Shown here one piece after another: positions 5,948 to 28,506 of a DNA stretch of 64,000 bases. A program made the position numbers and the translations under genes. Position 1 is the first letter of the stretch. The number at the start of each line of letters is the position of its first letter. The stretch lies in contig NZ_JAENZZ010000001.1 in assembly GCF_016612865.1 (NCBI RefSeq), forward strand, positions 1,116,001 through 1,180,000, read 5' to 3'. Under the pieces are notes generated by a model. That model had not been told where the DNA came from. It saw nothing but the letters and a program-made list of their open reading frames with translations, and searched no databases. The stretch comes from Blastococcus sp. TML/M2B. Its GTDB lineage: Bacteria > Actinomycetota > Actinomycetes > Mycobacteriales > Geodermatophilaceae.

Positions 5948-6925
5948 GAGCAGGACTGCCCGTCGCGCAGCGTGGCCAGGTTCGACCGCATGACCTCGAA
6001 GGTAGTCCTCGCCGGCGGAGTCGTCGCTCAGCCCCTCGACCGGATCGAGGACGGCGGTGCGGGCACCGGCCTCCGACGCCACCGTCTCGGCCACGGCCGG
6101 GTCGACCAGCGCCTCGGTGTAGACCGTGGTCACACCCCGCTCGGAGACGAGCCGGGAGATGGTGGCCAGCTGCGCAGGCGAGGGCTCCGCCGACGGGCTC
6201 AGCCCGTTGATGCCGACCACCTCGAGACCGTAGCGCTCGGCGAGGTAGCCGAAGGCGTCGTGCGCGGTGACCACGGTGCTCACCGCGCAGTCGGCCAGGC
6301 CGGCGCGCAGCTCGTCGTCGAGCGCCTCGAGGTCCGCGCGCAGCGCCGCCGCGTTGGTGGTGAAGGTGTCCGCGCCCTCGGGGTCGAGCTCGGTCAGCCG
6401 GTCGGCCAGGGCGTCGGCGACGTCGGCCAGCCGGGCGGGGTCCAGCCAGAAGTGCGGGTCGACGACGTCGTCGCCGTGGTCGTGGCCGTGGTCCTCGCCG
6501 TCCTCGTGCCCGGCGTCCTCCTCGGCGTCGTGCTCGGCGTCGTGCTCGTCGTCGTGGGCGTCGCCGGTCAGCAGGTCGGCGGCGTCCCCGGCGTCCCAGG
6601 TGTGGTCGCCGCCGGCGGTCTCGGCGGCCTCGTCCAGCGCGGGCTGGAATCCGGCCAGGTAGACCAGCAGGTCGGCGTCCTCGACGGCGGCGACGTCGCG
6701 CGGGGTGAGCTCGAGGTCGTGCGGCTCGCCCCCGGGCGGCGTGAGCGCCTCGACCGAGACGCGGTCCCCGCCGACCCGCTCGGCCGCCCACTCGAGGGGG
6801 TAGAAGCCGGCGAGCACCTGCACGCCGTCGTCGGTCGCGGCGTCGTCGCTCCCGCAGCCGGTGGTGATCGCCAGCACGGCGGTGGTGAGCGCGACGCCGG
6901 CCCAGCGGGACCTTCTCGTGAACAT
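5944..6925 (-). CDS. znuA: Zinc ABC transporter substrate-binding lipoprotein (one frame break)
   Basis: A cluster A-I metal-binding lipoprotein of about 326 residues once the frame is restored. The N-terminus is a lipoprotein signal with Cys24 (ITTGC). Candidate zinc ligands sit in [19 protein letters not shown] and [10 protein letters not shown] long acidic His-rich loop ([20 protein letters not shown]) is typical of zinc binders. An extra A at 5999-6000 (plus strand GAAGG) shifts the frame after GEDYL. Without it the protein ends [17 protein letters not shown]. The ATG at 6925 lies at the edge of the Zur operator. Confidence 0.9.
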
Positions 6926-21525: not shown

Positions 21526-21599
21526 CCGATCTGACCGCCCTGCACGCGTCCGGGGGCCCGGCCGCCTGAGAGAGTGGGGGAGAGCCGTTCTCCCGGCTC

Positions 21600-21642
21600 C
21601 CGGACGAGCGGTGCCGTACCCGGTGTGCGACAAGACGGCGCC
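21600..21642 (+). promoter_or_regulatory. Guanidine-III riboswitch (ykkC-III class)
   Basis: The segment holds the class hallmarks in order: CCGGACGAG, GTGCCGTACCCGG and CGACAAGACGGCGCC. The first CCGG can pair with the CCGG at 21620-21623. Bases 21610-21617 can pair with 21635-21642 as the pseudoknot (one G-U pair). The pseudoknot 3' strand ends 2 nt before the AGGAG of the downstream guanidine exporter gene, so ligand binding likely acts on translation or transcript start-up of that gene. Confidence 0.88.
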
Positions 21643-21656
21643 AGAGGAGTCCTGCG

Positions 21657-21971
21657 ATGTCGTGGCTCGTGCTCGTCGTGTCCGGGTTGTTCGAGGCCGT
21701 GTGGGCCACCGCCCTGGGCCGGTCCGAGGGGTTCACCCGGCTGGTGCCGTCGGTCGTGTTCAGCGTGGCGATGGTGTTCAGCATGGTCGGGCTGGCCTAC
21801 GCCATGCGTGAGCTGCCCGTCGGCACCGCCTACGCGGTCTGGGTGGGCATCGGGGCGTCGGTCACGGTCGTCTACGCGATGGCGACCGGAACCGAGCCGG
21901 TGTCGCTGGCCAAGGTGCTACTGATCCTCGGCCTGATCAGCTGCGTCGTCGGCCTCAAGGTCGTGCACTAG
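21657..21971 (+). CDS. gdx: Guanidinium exporter, SMR family (Gdx/SugE type)
   Basis: A 104-residue four-helix small multidrug resistance protein. The ion-coupling Glu13 sits in VSGLFEAVWATALG, and ELPVGTAYAVWVGIGA is the Gdx/SugE form, not the EmrE form. Gdx exports guanidinium in exchange for protons as a dimer. The guanidine-III riboswitch directly upstream supports this role strongly. The gene ends with TAG, the only TAG stop in the window not shared with a convergent gene. The start ATG follows AGGAG by 7 nt. Confidence 0.92.
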   Translation: MSWLVLVVSGLFEAVWATALGRSEGFTRLVPSVVFSVAMVFSMVGLAYAMRELPVGTAYAVWVGIGASVTVVYAMATGTEPVSLAKVLLILGLISCVVGLKVVH

Positions 21972-23068: not shown

Positions 23069-23911
23069 ATGGCGACACGTGCACTCGTTCTCGGTGGCGG
23101 CGGCGTCGCCGGCATCGCCTGGGAGCTCGGCCTGCTCAGCGGCTGGGCCGCCGAGGGCGTCGACGTGACCGCGGCCGACCTGGTCGTCGGCACCTCGGCC
23201 GGCTCCGTGGTGGGCGCCCAGGTGCGCCTCGACGGCGACCTGCAGGCCCTCTACGCCCGTCAGCTGCTCCCGCCGGTCGGCGAGATGAAGGTCGACTTCG
23301 ACGGGGTGTCGGCGATGACCGTCTTCGCCGACGCGATGAAGGGCGCGACGGGGGAGCAGGACGCACGGGCCCGCCTCGGCGCGGTGGCCCTCTCGATCGA
23401 CGCCGTCCCCGAGGCGGAGCGCCGGGCCATCATCGAGGGCCGGATCGGCGACCCCGAGTGGCCCTCCGGCCGGCTGGTGATCACCGCCGTCGACACCGCC
23501 GACGGCGAGTTCCTGCCGTTCGACTCGACCTCGGGCGTGCGGCTGCTCGACGCGGTCACCGCCAGCTGCGCGGTCCCCGGCGTCTGGCCGCCGGTCACCG
23601 TGGACGGCCGCCGGCTGATGGACGGCGGGATGCGCTCGGTCACCAACGCCGACCTGGCCGCCGGCTGCGAGAAGGTGCTGATCGTGACCCCGACCCGCGG
23701 CATGCCCGGTGGCCTGCTCGGGCCCGGCCTCGACCGGGAGATCGAGATCCTGGAGAAGGAGGCCGAGGTGCTCGTGGTCACCGCCGACGAGGCCTCGCTG
23801 GCCGCCTTCGGCAGCAACGTGCTGGACCCGGCGACCCGCGAGCCCTCGGCCCGCGCCGGCCGGGCCCAGGCCGCCACCACGATCGAGGCGGCCCGCGCCT
23901 TCTGGGGCTAG
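23069..23911 (+). CDS. Patatin-like phospholipase family protein
   Basis: A 280-residue patatin-domain protein with oxyanion-hole LGGGGVAGIAW near the N-terminus, nucleophile motif VGTSAGSVVGAQ, and catalytic DGGMRS. These form the Ser-Asp dyad of the family, expected to hydrolyse acyl esters of lipids. No signal peptide is seen, so it is likely cytoplasmic or membrane-associated. ATG 23069 follows AAGGGG by 8 nt; the upstream in-frame ATG at 23006 is less likely. Its TAG stop is the same CTAG that stops selD on the other strand. Confidence 0.88.
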   Translation: MATRALVLGGGGVAGIAWELGLLSGWAAEGVDVTAADLVVGTSAGSVVGAQVRLDGDLQALYARQLLPPVGEMKVDFDGVSAMTVFADAMKGATGEQDARARLGAVALSIDAVPEAERRAIIEGRIGDPEWPSGRLVITAVDTADGEFLPFDSTSGVRLLDAVTASCAVPGVWPPVTVDGRRLMDGGMRSVTNADLAAGCEKVLIVTPTRGMPGGLLGPGLDREIEILEKEAEVLVVTADEASLAAFGSNVLDPATREPSARAGRAQAATTIEAARAFWG

Positions 23912-24915
23912 CCCCGGATGACCACCACGTGCTCCCCGCGGGGCACGAACTCCCCGATCACCGGGGCGCCGGGCACCTCGCCGCCGAGCAGCAGGCCACC
24001 GGATGTCTGCGCGTCGGCGAGCAGCAGCGCCTCGTCCTCGGTCACCGCGGACAGGTCGGTGTGCGGGCGGACCCAGTCCAGGTTGCGCCGGGTGCCTCCG
24101 GAGACGAAGCCGTCGGCCAGCGCCTGCCGGGCCCCGGCCAGGTAGGGGACGGCGGCGGCGTCCACGACAGCGGTGACGCCGCTGGCGCGGGCCATCTTGT
24201 AGAGGTGCCCGAGCAGGCCGAACCCGGTCACGTCGGTGCCCGCCCGGATGCCGGCGGCGACCGCGGCCTGCCCGGCCTCGCGGTTGAGCGCGGTCATCGA
24301 GGCGACCGCCTCCTCCGACACCTCGCCGGTGGCCTTCATCCGGCTGTTGAGCACCCCGACGCCCAGCGGCTTGGTGAGGCTGAGCGGGGTGCCGGCGACC
24401 GCGCCGGAGTTGGTGATGATCCGGTCGACGTCGACCACGCCGGTGACGGCCATGCCGTACTTCGGCTCCGGGTCGTCGATCGAGTGCCCGCCGCCGACGT
24501 GGCAGCCGGCCTCGTGCGCCACCTCGAGGCCGCCGCGCAGCACCTCGGCGGCCAGCTCGGCCGGCAGCACGTCGCGCGGCCAGCCCAGCAGGTTCACCGC
24601 GACGACCGGGGTGCCGCCCATGGCGTAGACGTCGGAGAGCGCGTTGGCCGCGGCGATCCGGCCAAAGGTGTACGCGTCGTCCACGACGGGGGTGAAGAAG
24701 TCGGTGGTCAGCACCAGGCCCTGGCCGCCGGCGATCCGCACCACAGCGGCGTCGTCCCCGTCGTCCAGGCCGACCACGAGCTCGGCAGCGGGATCCGCGG
24801 GGCCGCGGTCGGTGAGCCCGGCGACGACGGACTCAAGCTCGCCGGGCGGGATCTTGCAGGCGCACCCGCCGCCGTGCGCGAACTGGGTGAGCCGGATGGC
24901 AGGCGCGATCGTCAC
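23908..24915 (-). CDS. selD: Selenide, water dikinase
   Basis: A 335-residue SelD that makes selenophosphate from selenide and ATP, the selenium donor for Sec-tRNA. The N-terminal catalytic loop is HGGGCACKIPP, with Cys rather than Sec in the active-site position. DFFTPVVDDAYTFGRIAAANALSDVYAMGG-type sequence and TDVTGFGLLGH follow as in the family. The start is GTG 24915, 7 nt after TACGGT, with no ribosome binding site. It is divergent from tRNA-Sec/selA/selB and shares its TAG stop with the patatin gene. Confidence 0.95.
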   Translation of the reverse strand: MTIAPAIRLTQFAHGGGCACKIPPGELESVVAGLTDRGPADPAAELVVGLDDGDDAAVVRIAGGQGLVLTTDFFTPVVDDAYTFGRIAAANALSDVYAMGGTPVVAVNLLGWPRDVLPAELAAEVLRGGLEVAHEAGCHVGGGHSIDDPEPKYGMAVTGVVDVDRIITNSGAVAGTPLSLTKPLGVGVLNSRMKATGEVSEEAVASMTALNREAGQAAVAAGIRAGTDVTGFGLLGHLYKMARASGVTAVVDAAAVPYLAGARQALADGFVSGGTRRNLDWVRPHTDLSAVTEDEALLLADAQTSGGLLLGGEVPGAPVIGEFVPRGEHVVVIRG

Positions 24916-24922
24916 GCCACCG

Positions 24923-24928
24923 ACCGTA
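24923..24928 (-). promoter_or_regulatory. -10 hexamer of a probable leaderless selD mRNA
   Basis: On the minus strand TACGGT ends 7 nt before the selD GTG. It lies in the 40 bp between selD and the upstream minus-strand gene. Confidence 0.5.
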
Positions 24929-24955
24929 GTCGCGGACGACCCGCCGGGCCGCCGG

Positions 24956-25279
24956 TCAGGCCCGCCCACCCGGCAGCAGCACCAGCCGCGGCGGGACCGG
25001 CTGCTCCGGCTGGGCGCGTCGGGCCCGGCCGGCGGGGTGCCGCGAGCGCTCGCCGGCCGCCCGCAGCTCCGCCCGCCGTTGCGGGTCGGGCTCCAGCGCG
25101 GCGAGGACCTTCTCCAGCGCGCCGCGGCCGGCCTCGGCGAAGGGGCCCTCGGGCCGGGCGGTGAGCGCCACGGCGACGGCGGCCGCCTCCTCAGGGGTGA
25201 GGGTCACCGGCGGCAGGAGCGCGGGGGAGCGGGACTCGGTGCGGTTCACGGTCGGGATGCTGGCAGCGACCTCCGACAC
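24956..25279 (-). CDS. Short WYL/YafY-regulator-like protein, probably a fragment
   Basis: A 107-residue open frame. Residues 20-65 (LLPPVTLTPEEAAAVAVAL, GRGALEKVLAALEP) resemble the middle helical segment of YafY/WYL transcription regulators. The N-terminal helix-turn-helix and the WYL domain are both absent, and only 40 bp separate the end from selD. The C-terminus is Arg/Pro-rich. It may be a remnant of a longer regulator or a small conserved protein in its own right. Function unknown. Confidence 0.45.
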   Translation of the reverse strand: MSEVAASIPTVNRTESRSPALLPPVTLTPEEAAAVAVALTARPEGPFAEAGRGALEKVLAALEPDPQRRAELRAAGERSRHPAGRARRAQPEQPVPPRLVLLPGGRA

Positions 25280-25311: not shown

Positions 25312-25407
25312 GGAGGCGTCAGGGTGTCTGGTGACCCCCGCGGCCTCTAAAGCCGACGTGGCCGAGCAGCTCGGCCAGGCGGGTTCGATTCCCGTCCGCC
25401 TCCGCCA
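25312..25407 (+). tRNA. selC: tRNA-Sec with anticodon CUA (reads UAG)
   Basis: Acceptor GGAGGCG (25312-25318) pairs with CGCCTCC (25397-25403), and an eighth position is a T-C mismatch. G and an encoded CCA (25405-25407) follow. The D arm can form the 6-bp stem with 4-nt loop TGGT typical of tRNA-Sec if T25325 is bulged. The anticodon loop CTCTAAA (25345-25351) gives anticodon CTA, stem 4-6 bp with bulged A25356. The variable arm is long, 8 bp at 25359-25366/25370-25377. The T loop is TTCGATT. It lies just upstream of selA-selB, so it is the selenocysteine tRNA, recoded from TCA. Confidence 0.88.
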
Positions 25408-25437: not shown

Positions 25438-26770
25438 ATGTCCGACGACGCGCGCACCGACGACCCGCGGCGCGCGGTGCCGCGCACCGACGCGTTGCTG
25501 GCCGACCCGGCGCTCCGCGCCGCCGAGCAGCGGCTGGGCCGGGCGCTGGTGAAGGACGCCGTCGCCCGCGTCCAGCAGCGCATCCGCACCGGTGCGCTGG
25601 CGCCCGAGCGGGCGGTGCCCGCCGTCCTCGACGACCTGCCGACCACGGCCGGCAGCCTGCGCCCGGTCCTCAACGCCACCGGGGTGCTCGTGCACACCAA
25701 CCTCGGGCGGGCGCCGCTCTCCGCGGCCGCGGTCGAGGCGATCGCCGCCGCCGCGGGCACCACCGACGTCGAGCTCGACCTGGCCACCGGGCGGCGCGGC
25801 CCGCGCGGGGAGGCGGCCCTGGGCGCCCTGCTGGACGCCGTCCCCGCCGCGGAGGCCGCGCTCGTCGTCGGCAACTGCGCCGCGGCGCTGGCGCTGGTCG
25901 CCACCGCGCTCGGGCAGGGCCGCGAGCTGGTCCTCGCGCGTGGCGAGCTGGTCGAGATCGGCGACGGCTTCCGCATCCCCGACCTGCTCCAGTCCACCGG
26001 CGCCCGCCTGCGCGAGGTCGGGACGACCAACCGGGTCACCGTCGAGGACTACCGCGCCGCGCTCTCGCCGGACACCGGTGCCGTGCTCAAGGTCCACCCC
26101 TCCAACTTCGTCGTCCGCGGCTTCACGCGGTCGGCCGACGTGGGCGAGCTGGCCGCGGCGCTGGCCGGCACCGGGGTGCCGCTCGTCGCCGACGTCGGCT
26201 CGGGCCTGCTCCGCGCCCACCCGCTGCTGCCGGACGAGCCCGACCTCCAGTCGACCCTCGCCGCCGGTGCGGACCTCGTGCTGGCCAGCGGGGACAAGCT
26301 GCTCGGCGGGCCGCAGGCGGGGCTCGTGCTCGGGCGGGCCGACCTCGTCCAGCGGTTGCGCCGGCACCCGCTCTACCGCGCGCTCCGGGTCGACAAGACC
26401 ACCCTCGCCGCCCTGGAGGCGACGCTGCGCGGCCCGACGCCGCCGGTCCGGCAGCTGCTGGAGACCGGGGTCGAGGAGCTGCGCACCCGCGCCACCGGCG
26501 GTGGCCGGGCGGCTCGCCGCCGCCGGCGTCGACGCACGCGTCGTGGACGCCCCCGGCCGCGTCGGCGGGGGAGGAGCCCCCGAGCACCCGTTGCCCGGCG
26601 TCGCGGTCTCGCTGCCCGACGGGTTCGCCGAACCGCTGCGTCGGGCGACCGTGCCGGTGGTCGGCTACGTGGAGGAGGACCGCACGCTGCTCAACCTGCG
26701 CAGCCTGCTCCCCGCCGACGACGACGCCCTGGTCGGCGCCGTGCTGGAGGTGGCCCGGCGGTGGACGTGA
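25438..26770 (+). CDS. selA: L-seryl-tRNA(Sec) selenium transferase (one frame break)
   Basis: About 443 residues after repair. SelA is a PLP enzyme that converts Ser-tRNA(Sec) to Sec-tRNA(Sec) with selenophosphate. It shows the N-terminal [20 protein letters not shown], the PLP lysine K287 in [14 protein letters not shown] and [15 protein letters not shown]. Near 26494-26499 the text reads ACCGGCGGTGG; removing one G restores the family C-terminus ([32 protein letters not shown]). Its stop overlaps the selB start region. Confidence 0.92.
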
Positions 26771-28506
26771 TCGCCACGGCCGGGCACGTCGACCACGGCA
26801 AGTCCGCGCTGGTGCGCGCGCTGACCGGGATGGAGCCCGACCGCTGGGCCGAGGAGCGCCGCCGCGGCCTGACCATCGACCTCGGGTTCGCCTGGACCGA
26901 CCTGCCCTCGGGGCGCACGGTCGCCGTCGTCGACGTGCCGGGGCACGAGCGGTTCATCGGCAACATGCTGGCCGGGATCGGCCCGGTGCCGGCCGCGCTG
27001 CTGGTGGTCGCGGCGGACGACGGGTGGTCGGCGCAGACCGAGGAGCACGTCGCCGTGCTGGACGCGCTCGGGGTGCGGCACGCGCTGCTCGCGGTCACGA
27101 AGTCCGACCTCGCCGACCCCGCCCCGGTGCTCGCCGACGCCACGGAGCGGCTCGCGGCGACGTCGATGGGCGCGGTGCCCGGGCTCGCGGTCAGCGCCCT
27201 CACCGGGTCCGGCCTGCCGGAGCTCTCCGCCGCGCTGGAGCAGTTGCTCGCCGGGCTGCCCGCGCCGGACACCGCGGCGCCGGTGCGGCTCTGGATCGAC
27301 CGCGCCTTCACCATCAAGGGGGCCGGCACGGTGGTCACCGGCACGCTCGCCGGCGGGACGGTGGCCCCGGAGGACCGGCTGCGGCTGGGGGACCGCGACG
27401 TCGTCGTCCGCGGCGTGCAGTCCCTCGGCCGACCGGTCGAGCGGGCACAGGCCACCGCCCGCGTCGCCCTGAACCTGCGCGGGATCGCGGTCGAGGAGAT
27501 CCGCCGCGGCGACGCGCTGTTGACCCCGGGTGCCTTCCGCAGCACCACCGAGGTCGACGTGACGCTGGTCGGCGCTCCCGAGGGCCGGCTCCCCGGCGAG
27601 GCGGTGGTGCACGTCGGCTCCGCGACGGTCGGCGCCCGGGTGCGCCCGCTCGACGGCGCCGTCGTGCGACTGCGCCTGGACGCCGCCCTCCCGCTGCGGA
27701 TCGGCGACCGGCTGATCCTGCGCGACCCCGGCGCCCGGCGGGTGCTGGGTGCCGACGTGCGGGACGTCGACCCGCCGGAACTGCGCCGACGCGGCGCGGC
27801 CCGGGCGCGGGCGGCGGAGCTCGCCGCGCGGCCCGCGGGCGCCGACGGCGCGGCCGCGGAGCTGGCCCGGCGCGGGATCGTCCGCACCGCCGAGTTCACC
27901 GCCATGGGCTGGACCCTCCCCGCGGAGGCGGTCGAGCACGGCCCGTGGCTGCTCGCGGCCGAGCTCGCCGGAACGCTGGCCGACCGGGTGCCCGACGTCG
28001 TCGCTCGCTACCGCCGGCTGCGCCCGCTGGAGCCGGGCCCGCCGGTGGACGTCGTGCGTCGCGCCCTGGAGCTGCCCGACGTCGAGCTGGTGCGCGCCCT
28101 GGTGCGCCCGCCGCTGGCGCTGCGCGACGGCCGGGTCGCCGACGCCGGGGCCGAGCTGCCCCCGGAGGTGCAGCGCGCCGTGGACACCGTCCGCGCCCGG
28201 CTGGCCGACGACCCGTTCGCCGCACCCGAGGTGCCCGAGCTGGCCGCCGCGGCGCTGGGTCCGCGCGAGCTGGCCGCGGCGGTGCGCAGCGGGCAGCTGG
28301 TCCGGATCGCCGAGGGCGTGTACCTGGCGCCGGGCATCGCCGAGGTCGCGCGCGCCCGGCTGGCCGCGCTGCCGCAGCCGTTCACCCTCAGCCAGGCCCG
28401 CCAGGCGTGGGGGACCAGTCGCCGCGTCGCCGTGCCGCTCATGGAGTGGCTCGACGCGCAGGGGATCACCGCGCGGTTGCCGGACAACACCCGCCGGCTG
28501 CGCTGA
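26761..28506 (+). CDS. selB: Selenocysteine-specific elongation factor
   Basis: A 581-residue SelB with G1 [17 protein letters not shown] at residue 7 on, [25 protein letters not shown] and TKSDLAD. Domains II-III follow, then C-terminal winged-helix repeats ([27 protein letters not shown]) that bind the mRNA SECIS hairpin. It delivers Sec-tRNA to a recoded stop codon; here the partner tRNA should read UAG. GTG 26761 is chosen, and an in-frame GTG at 26767 is also possible. It overlaps the selA stop by 10 nt. Confidence 0.95.

Follow-up and report, generated by a model that had tools for sequence, protein, structure and literature searches.

Introduction

With few exceptions, the codon for selenocysteine (Sec) is UGA. 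UAG-programmed Sec has reportedly been confirmed by 75Se labeling or mass spectrometry, as the abstract of Mukai et al. 2016 is said to state.

A tRNA-Sec with a CUA anticodon has been described in three Geodermatophilaceae genomes, Mukai et al. (2016) are cited for TAG in the genes for formate dehydrogenase (FDH) and for UGSC-family proteins, and a further TAG gene is named, the AhpC gene of Blastococcus saxobsidens (PMC5330540). PMC10778597 states that some species use UAG, UAA and ten sense codons for Sec. The original prediction for the DNA considered here, made from its letters, pointed to reports of UAG-reading tRNA-Sec in this family, and did so rightly (PMC5330540).

This DNA, the window, is a stretch of 64,000 nucleotides from Blastococcus sp. 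TML/M2B, whose genome carries the code G000. The locus is very probably the Sec machinery of a Geodermatophilaceae bacterium with UAG-encoded Sec, a reading drawn from sequence comparison.

The tRNA-Sec gene and its neighbors

The tRNA-Sec gene (selC) lies at 25312..25407 on the forward strand. The covariance model RF01852 matches 25312-25403 on that strand with 69.5 bits, above the gathering score of 47 (E 7.4e-13, 12,001 bases searched). The alignment is full-length, covering model positions 1-91 of 91, and no other RNA family matched at the locus in the same 12,001 bases. G73 and an encoded CCA complete the gene, which ends at 25407. The minimum free energy fold (z -3.4 against shuffles) has a long variable arm of 8 bp, and an acceptor stem of 7 bp stacked on a T stem of 6 bp, together 13 bp. 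The anticodon loop is CTCTAAA, at 25344..25350 on the forward strand; both the sequence and the covariance-model alignment give the anticodon CTA (CUA), a variant known from PMC5330540, in place of the usual UCA. The original prediction of a tRNA-Sec with this loop and a long variable arm is borne out, also by the covariance-model check that it proposed. Its extended acceptor holds for the acceptor and T branch of 13 bp, but not for the acceptor stem of 7 bp alone. Its placement of the gene beside selA-selB agrees with profile matches, which put selD, selA and selB around the tRNA.

ARAGORN finds the gene at identical coordinates and labels it tRNA-Pyl(cta). The label and the CUA anticodon would suit a tRNA for pyrrolysine, or else a common amber suppressor of the Ser or Leu type, inserting Pyl, Ser or Leu at UAG, and G. 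obscurus is among the genomes with an Infernal-verified tRNA-Pyl in PMC3639795. A tRNA-Pyl identity was rejected on the long variable arm of 8 bp, which tRNA-Pyl lacks, on the RF01852 match and on the sel neighbors. These neighbors and the full-length match to RF01852 and to no other family speak equally against a suppressor, as do the TAG codons, whose positions are exactly those of catalytic Sec in two known families of selenoproteins. Insertion of Pyl, Ser or Leu is thus very improbable, and the tRNA-Pyl of G. obscurus in PMC3639795 looks like the same mislabel as ARAGORN's here.

The selenide water dikinase gene, selD, lies at 23908..24969 on the reverse strand and matches TIGR00476 (389.5 bits), PF00586 and PF02769. 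Its stop codon is TAG, and at the variable Sec/Cys site SelD has Cys. On the forward strand, the gene for the selenocysteine-specific elongation factor, selB (26767..28506), matches TIGR00475 with 286.5 bits (cut-off 242) and SelB-wing_3. The reading frames of selB and selD are open. The selenocysteine synthase gene, selA (25438..26770, forward strand; PF03841, 296 bits), is frame-broken. Its first frame, which matches positions 1-258 of the 367 of PF03841, runs to ...ELRTRA; a one-base break near 26,488-26,505 leaves the last quarter in another frame, where the remainder is encoded. In the translations of five relatives, compared frame by frame, SelA is in a single frame.

The predicted complete machinery is therefore present as to selB, selD and the tRNA, all open, and is incomplete as assembled in selA. 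The simplest reading of the break is an assembly error, and this assembly may accordingly hold errors. The frame change near 26,488 could also mean that the Sec system of this strain is decaying, with selA truly broken and the tRNA a relic. This is unlikely, as selB, selD, the tRNA and both genes with TAG are otherwise open and an error of assembly would account just as easily for one change of frame.

Elsewhere in the window (21579-21971), a Guanidine-III riboswitch (64.2 bits) lies 5' of a small ORF of 104 aa at 21657-21971, whose product, we presume, resembles an SMR guanidine exporter.

Selenoprotein genes with an in-frame TAG

Two genes of G000 contain one in-frame TAG each, the gene for FDH alpha at G000:C1:139997-143293 (NF041513, 1912 bits) and a UGSC-family gene at G000:C2:322232-322732 (PF24696, 144 bits). 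Aligned with solved structures, FDH alpha has its TAG at the X of 1h0h and 1kqf, the Sec of the FDH of D. gigas and E. coli, respectively. The TAG of the UGSC-family gene sits at the U of UGSC. Both genes have a hairpin 3' of the codon. A search of the genome for FDH or other selenoprotein genes with TAG and a hairpin, suggested at the outset, has thus succeeded, and the predicted decoding of UAG is supported in sequence by TAG rather than TGA at both Sec sites. Six AhpC-TSA matches in G000 contained no internal stop, and so no AhpC-type selenoprotein was found among them.

In the window itself, a codon-phase scan gave no candidates for TAG read-through, in agreement with the earlier statement that it holds no selenoprotein gene; the scan recovered both known TAG genes as positive controls. 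Its single TGA candidate looks like the junction of two genes. Codon-phase composition was used to pick 34 ORFs of the window; the stop codon is TGA in 29 of them and TAG in 5, including selD. UAG is therefore still a stop codon, and the recoding is one of context, not of reassignment.

The FDH hairpin has a stem of 7 bp and a loop that starts 18 nt after TAG; in G000 the loops of the FDH and UGSC hairpins begin 18-19 nt past TAG. At 22 FDH loci, with 14 distinct sequences, all 7 pairs form, none of them non-standard, and the loop GGUCU is invariant. One pair occurs as G-U (7), C-G (3), G-C (2) and U-A (2), and both partners are third codon positions. Pairs are also swapped in the UGSC hairpins (8 loci, 7 distinct sequences), the two lowest being broken in one divergent sequence. 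By folding energy, the FDH hairpin does no better than shuffles (z -0.60 and 0.34; 13% of shuffles equal it). Since energy does not separate it from shuffles, the case for the FDH hairpin rests on covariation, which is seen, as expected of a SECIS hairpin, in both the FDH and the UGSC hairpins.

The codon 5' of the FDH Sec-UAG is the rare AUA at 22 of 22 loci (for example L010 6562-6567); elsewhere in these genes AUA accounts for 19 of the 841 Ile codons counted. The FDH loci are related, and so these 22 cases are not independent events. This AUA rule may be new. The codon 5' of the UGSC TAG is GAC or GAT in the seven loci printed.

Codon and anticodon across Geodermatophilaceae

The survey comprised 112 Geodermatophilaceae genomes, and the anticodon was read at all 110 RF01852 loci of at least 64 bits. 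Weak matches (E up to 0.001) were discarded; they are present in 14 of 14 control genomes, five above the cut-off. CUA was found at 102 loci in 101 genomes. The remaining eight loci have UCA; one belongs to G058, where both anticodons occur, and the other seven to seven genomes of the genera g5, g6 and g7. Four genomes, G067, G071, G097 and G098, each at most 82% complete, have no tRNA-Sec locus of at least 64 bits, and an RF01852 match fetched from G071 was rejected, as it lacks a Sec-type loop. The pair that closes the anticodon loop is C-G in all CUA genes read and U-A in all UCA genes read. UCA is thus the anticodon of three genera, and CUA with the common change of closing pair that of the other nine.

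These numbers bear on the proposal that CUA is a sequencing or assembly error and that the true codon is UGA. The frame break in selA is the one observation found in its favor. Against it, 102 CUA loci in 101 genomes show that CUA is no sequencing error; the closing pair is C-G throughout, versus U-A in UCA genes, and the selenoprotein genes carry TAG, not TGA. The family-wide data refute this proposal, and we give it practically no weight.

FDH is present in 101 of the 112 genomes (E 1e-60). In 98 genomes the Sec site is covered by a match, and a count over the listed matches puts TAG within it in 98 of 98; when the gene was read base by base, TAG stood at the Sec site in 22 of 22 loci. Three genomes whose FDH matches do not span the site (G033, G079 and G096) were left out, and the loci L078 and L079 of G079 and L089 of G033, which have no readable site, were dropped. 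The stretch with the Sec codon and the hairpin is missing from both FDH copies of G079 (L078, L079), whose reading frames shift at that place. Seven genomes (G009, G023, G028, G051, G061, G107 and G098) appeared to have mixed FDH codons; TAG is at the Sec site in each, and TGA is at the gene end or upstream. G030 and G060 have a second FDH TAG, about 187 codons upstream of the Sec site. UGSC genes are present in 54 of the 112 genomes; 48 have TAG in at least one copy, six have only stop-free copies and none has TGA.

A CUA pattern applied within the order matched 75 of 75 Geodermatophilaceae genomes drawn and 1 of 322 genomes of other families, which places the switch inside Geodermatophilaceae. 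The simplest reading of the sequences would be a single origin of CUA in this family.

No FDH was found in the nine genomes of g5-g7 (E 1e-60), and FDH is therefore not comparable between UCA and CUA genomes. One UCA genome, G070, has a redoxin-like, AhpC/TSA-like gene (G070:C104:4544-4933; L257) with TGA in the context SFT-TGA-PGT. It reaches 24.3 bits against AhpC-TSA (cut-off 26), or 28.0 bits over a longer stretch, and is also near the deiodinase family, below the cut-off there. A hairpin loop begins 19 nt past the TGA. Among the nine g5-g7 genomes it is the one AhpC-TSA match with an internal TGA. A scan for TGA read-through at five UCA tRNA loci gave 16 hits by composition, none of which was judged convincing. 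The finding of UCA genera with a TGA gene may be new.

A genome with two tRNA-Sec anticodons

G058 (100% complete, 1% contamination) has a native CUA tRNA-Sec at C11:15836-15927. Beside it lies the one close SelB of this genome (C11:12711-14459, 79%); G000, too, has a counterpart of the other hit in the SelB search (36% over 263 aa). The FDH and UGSC genes of G058 carry TAG. At the start of contig C17 there is a second tRNA-Sec, of a different sequence lineage, with a UCA anticodon (L072 1173-1263, 81.8 bits). This end of C17 forms an island of lower GC content, with 64% in the first 5 kb versus 70-79% further in.

About 315 bp from the UCA tRNA-Sec lies a gene with TGA in the context CFY-TGA (L072 1579-2157). 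Its product is alkylhydroperoxidase-like and peroxidase-related (TIGR01926, 112.6 bits, cut-off 81.8); its score against NF041238, a '(seleno)protein' model, is 51.8 bits, far below the cut-off of 175. A hairpin loop begins 17 nt past the TGA. Cys takes the place of this TGA in 19 of 19 family loci read, from 19 further loci fetched out of a larger number. CMD matches (E 1e-8) occur in 73 of the 112 genomes, the best being 40% identical to the island protein, and among the matches listed from these 73 genomes no internal stop was seen beyond that of the island gene.

The island is flanked on its right side by IS110 and HTH/rve transposase genes, and on its left by an ORF without a Pfam match and the contig end. 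C17 could still be a misjoined contig, and the DNA between the island and the copied stretch described next is unique. From 6,814 onward, L072 has copies of 94-99% identity on four other contigs of G058 (C56, C44, C34 and C48), which favors C17 belonging to this genome. If it does, G058 would encode Sec by both UAG and UGA, and its lone close SelB would deliver both tRNA-Secs; we hold this tentatively, at slightly less than even confidence. A genome of this kind is possibly new: none using both Sec codons was found in the literature searched, which did not cover Mukai et al. (2016).

Were G058 to use both codons, it would represent a two-codon stage in a living organism and would test in nature whether one SelB serves two anticodons. 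A mobile cassette of a tRNA and a selenoprotein gene would then let a host that had abandoned UGA read it again, and a stage with two tRNAs could be a route of Sec codon change.

CUA and UUA tRNAs outside the family

The single match of the CUA pattern among the 322 genomes of other families was in G230, on a contig of 4.8 kb (G230:C194; L264). This contig carries sel DNA that resembles that of Geodermatophilaceae, with 74-85% identity over long stretches. For this reason the contig is taken as a probable MAG contaminant, and G230 was rejected as a case outside Geodermatophilaceae.

A second pattern, which left out the C-G closing pair of Geodermatophilaceae, was run on 84,980 species genomes; being exact, it misses variants. 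It gave 15 hits, one of which passes RF01852 (L069), while three are other tRNA genes with cta or tta anticodons (L063, L064 and L068). At the other 11 of the 15 there was no tRNA call.

The hit in L069 (1619-1710) is a tRNA-Sec with a UUA anticodon (58.7 bits) from a Clostridia MAG. It stands between selA and a sulfur/selenium-transport-like gene, with selD downstream, and is a candidate for a UAA-Sec system. In L064 (6712-6801), from a Terriglobia MAG, a tRNA with a TTA anticodon and a long variable arm has no Sec match and is perhaps an allo-tRNA. L063 contains a tRNA with a CTA anticodon (6454-6542) within an array of 16 tRNA genes, and L068 another with the same anticodon (2779-2868).

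Proposed mechanism and implications

By the established biochemistry, SerRS would charge tRNA-Sec(CUA) with serine, and SelA would convert the seryl-tRNA to the Sec form with selenophosphate from SelD. SelB-GTP would then bring the Sec-tRNA to the ribosome, anchored by the hairpin that lies some 18 nt past the codon. Sec would be inserted at one UAG in FDH alpha and one in the UGSC-family protein, and other UAGs would still terminate. With UAG rather than UGA as the codon, the competitor at the Sec site should be RF1, not RF2. The anticodon arm is not contacted by any tRNA-Sec-binding enzyme (PMC7609411), and a change of anticodon would therefore be cheap.

A codon that has moved within a bacterial family shows that what a recoding site means is set by SelB and the hairpin, not by the codon. 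With both UCA and CUA genera in one family, close relatives can be compared for the route that the codon change took. There is also a consequence for annotation: genes for FDH and UGSC-family proteins are truncated when annotation stops at TAG, and ARAGORN labels the tRNA as one for pyrrolysine.

Comparison with known systems

The canonical bacterial UGA-Sec system shares with G000 its four components (SelA, SelB, SelD and tRNA-Sec), the gene order and the dependence on a hairpin. It has the anticodon UCA and the codon UGA, whereas G000 has CUA and UAG. The pyrrolysine system has the CUA anticodon and UAG codon in common with G000, which differs from it in the long variable arm, the RF01852 match, the sel genes and the hairpin-dependent sites.

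The closest system is the UAG-Sec of Geodermatophilus and Blastococcus (Mukai et al., 2016; PMC5330540). The family is the same, as are the CUA tRNA-Sec, the TAG in FDH and UGSC genes and a bacterial hairpin 3' of the codon. Relative to these accounts, G000 departs in two details, its frame-broken selA and its AhpC-TSA matches, the six of which did not include the TAG AhpC of B. saxobsidens; no difference of kind was found. UAG-encoded Sec in Geodermatophilaceae is already published (PMC5330540), and the window is one further case of it.
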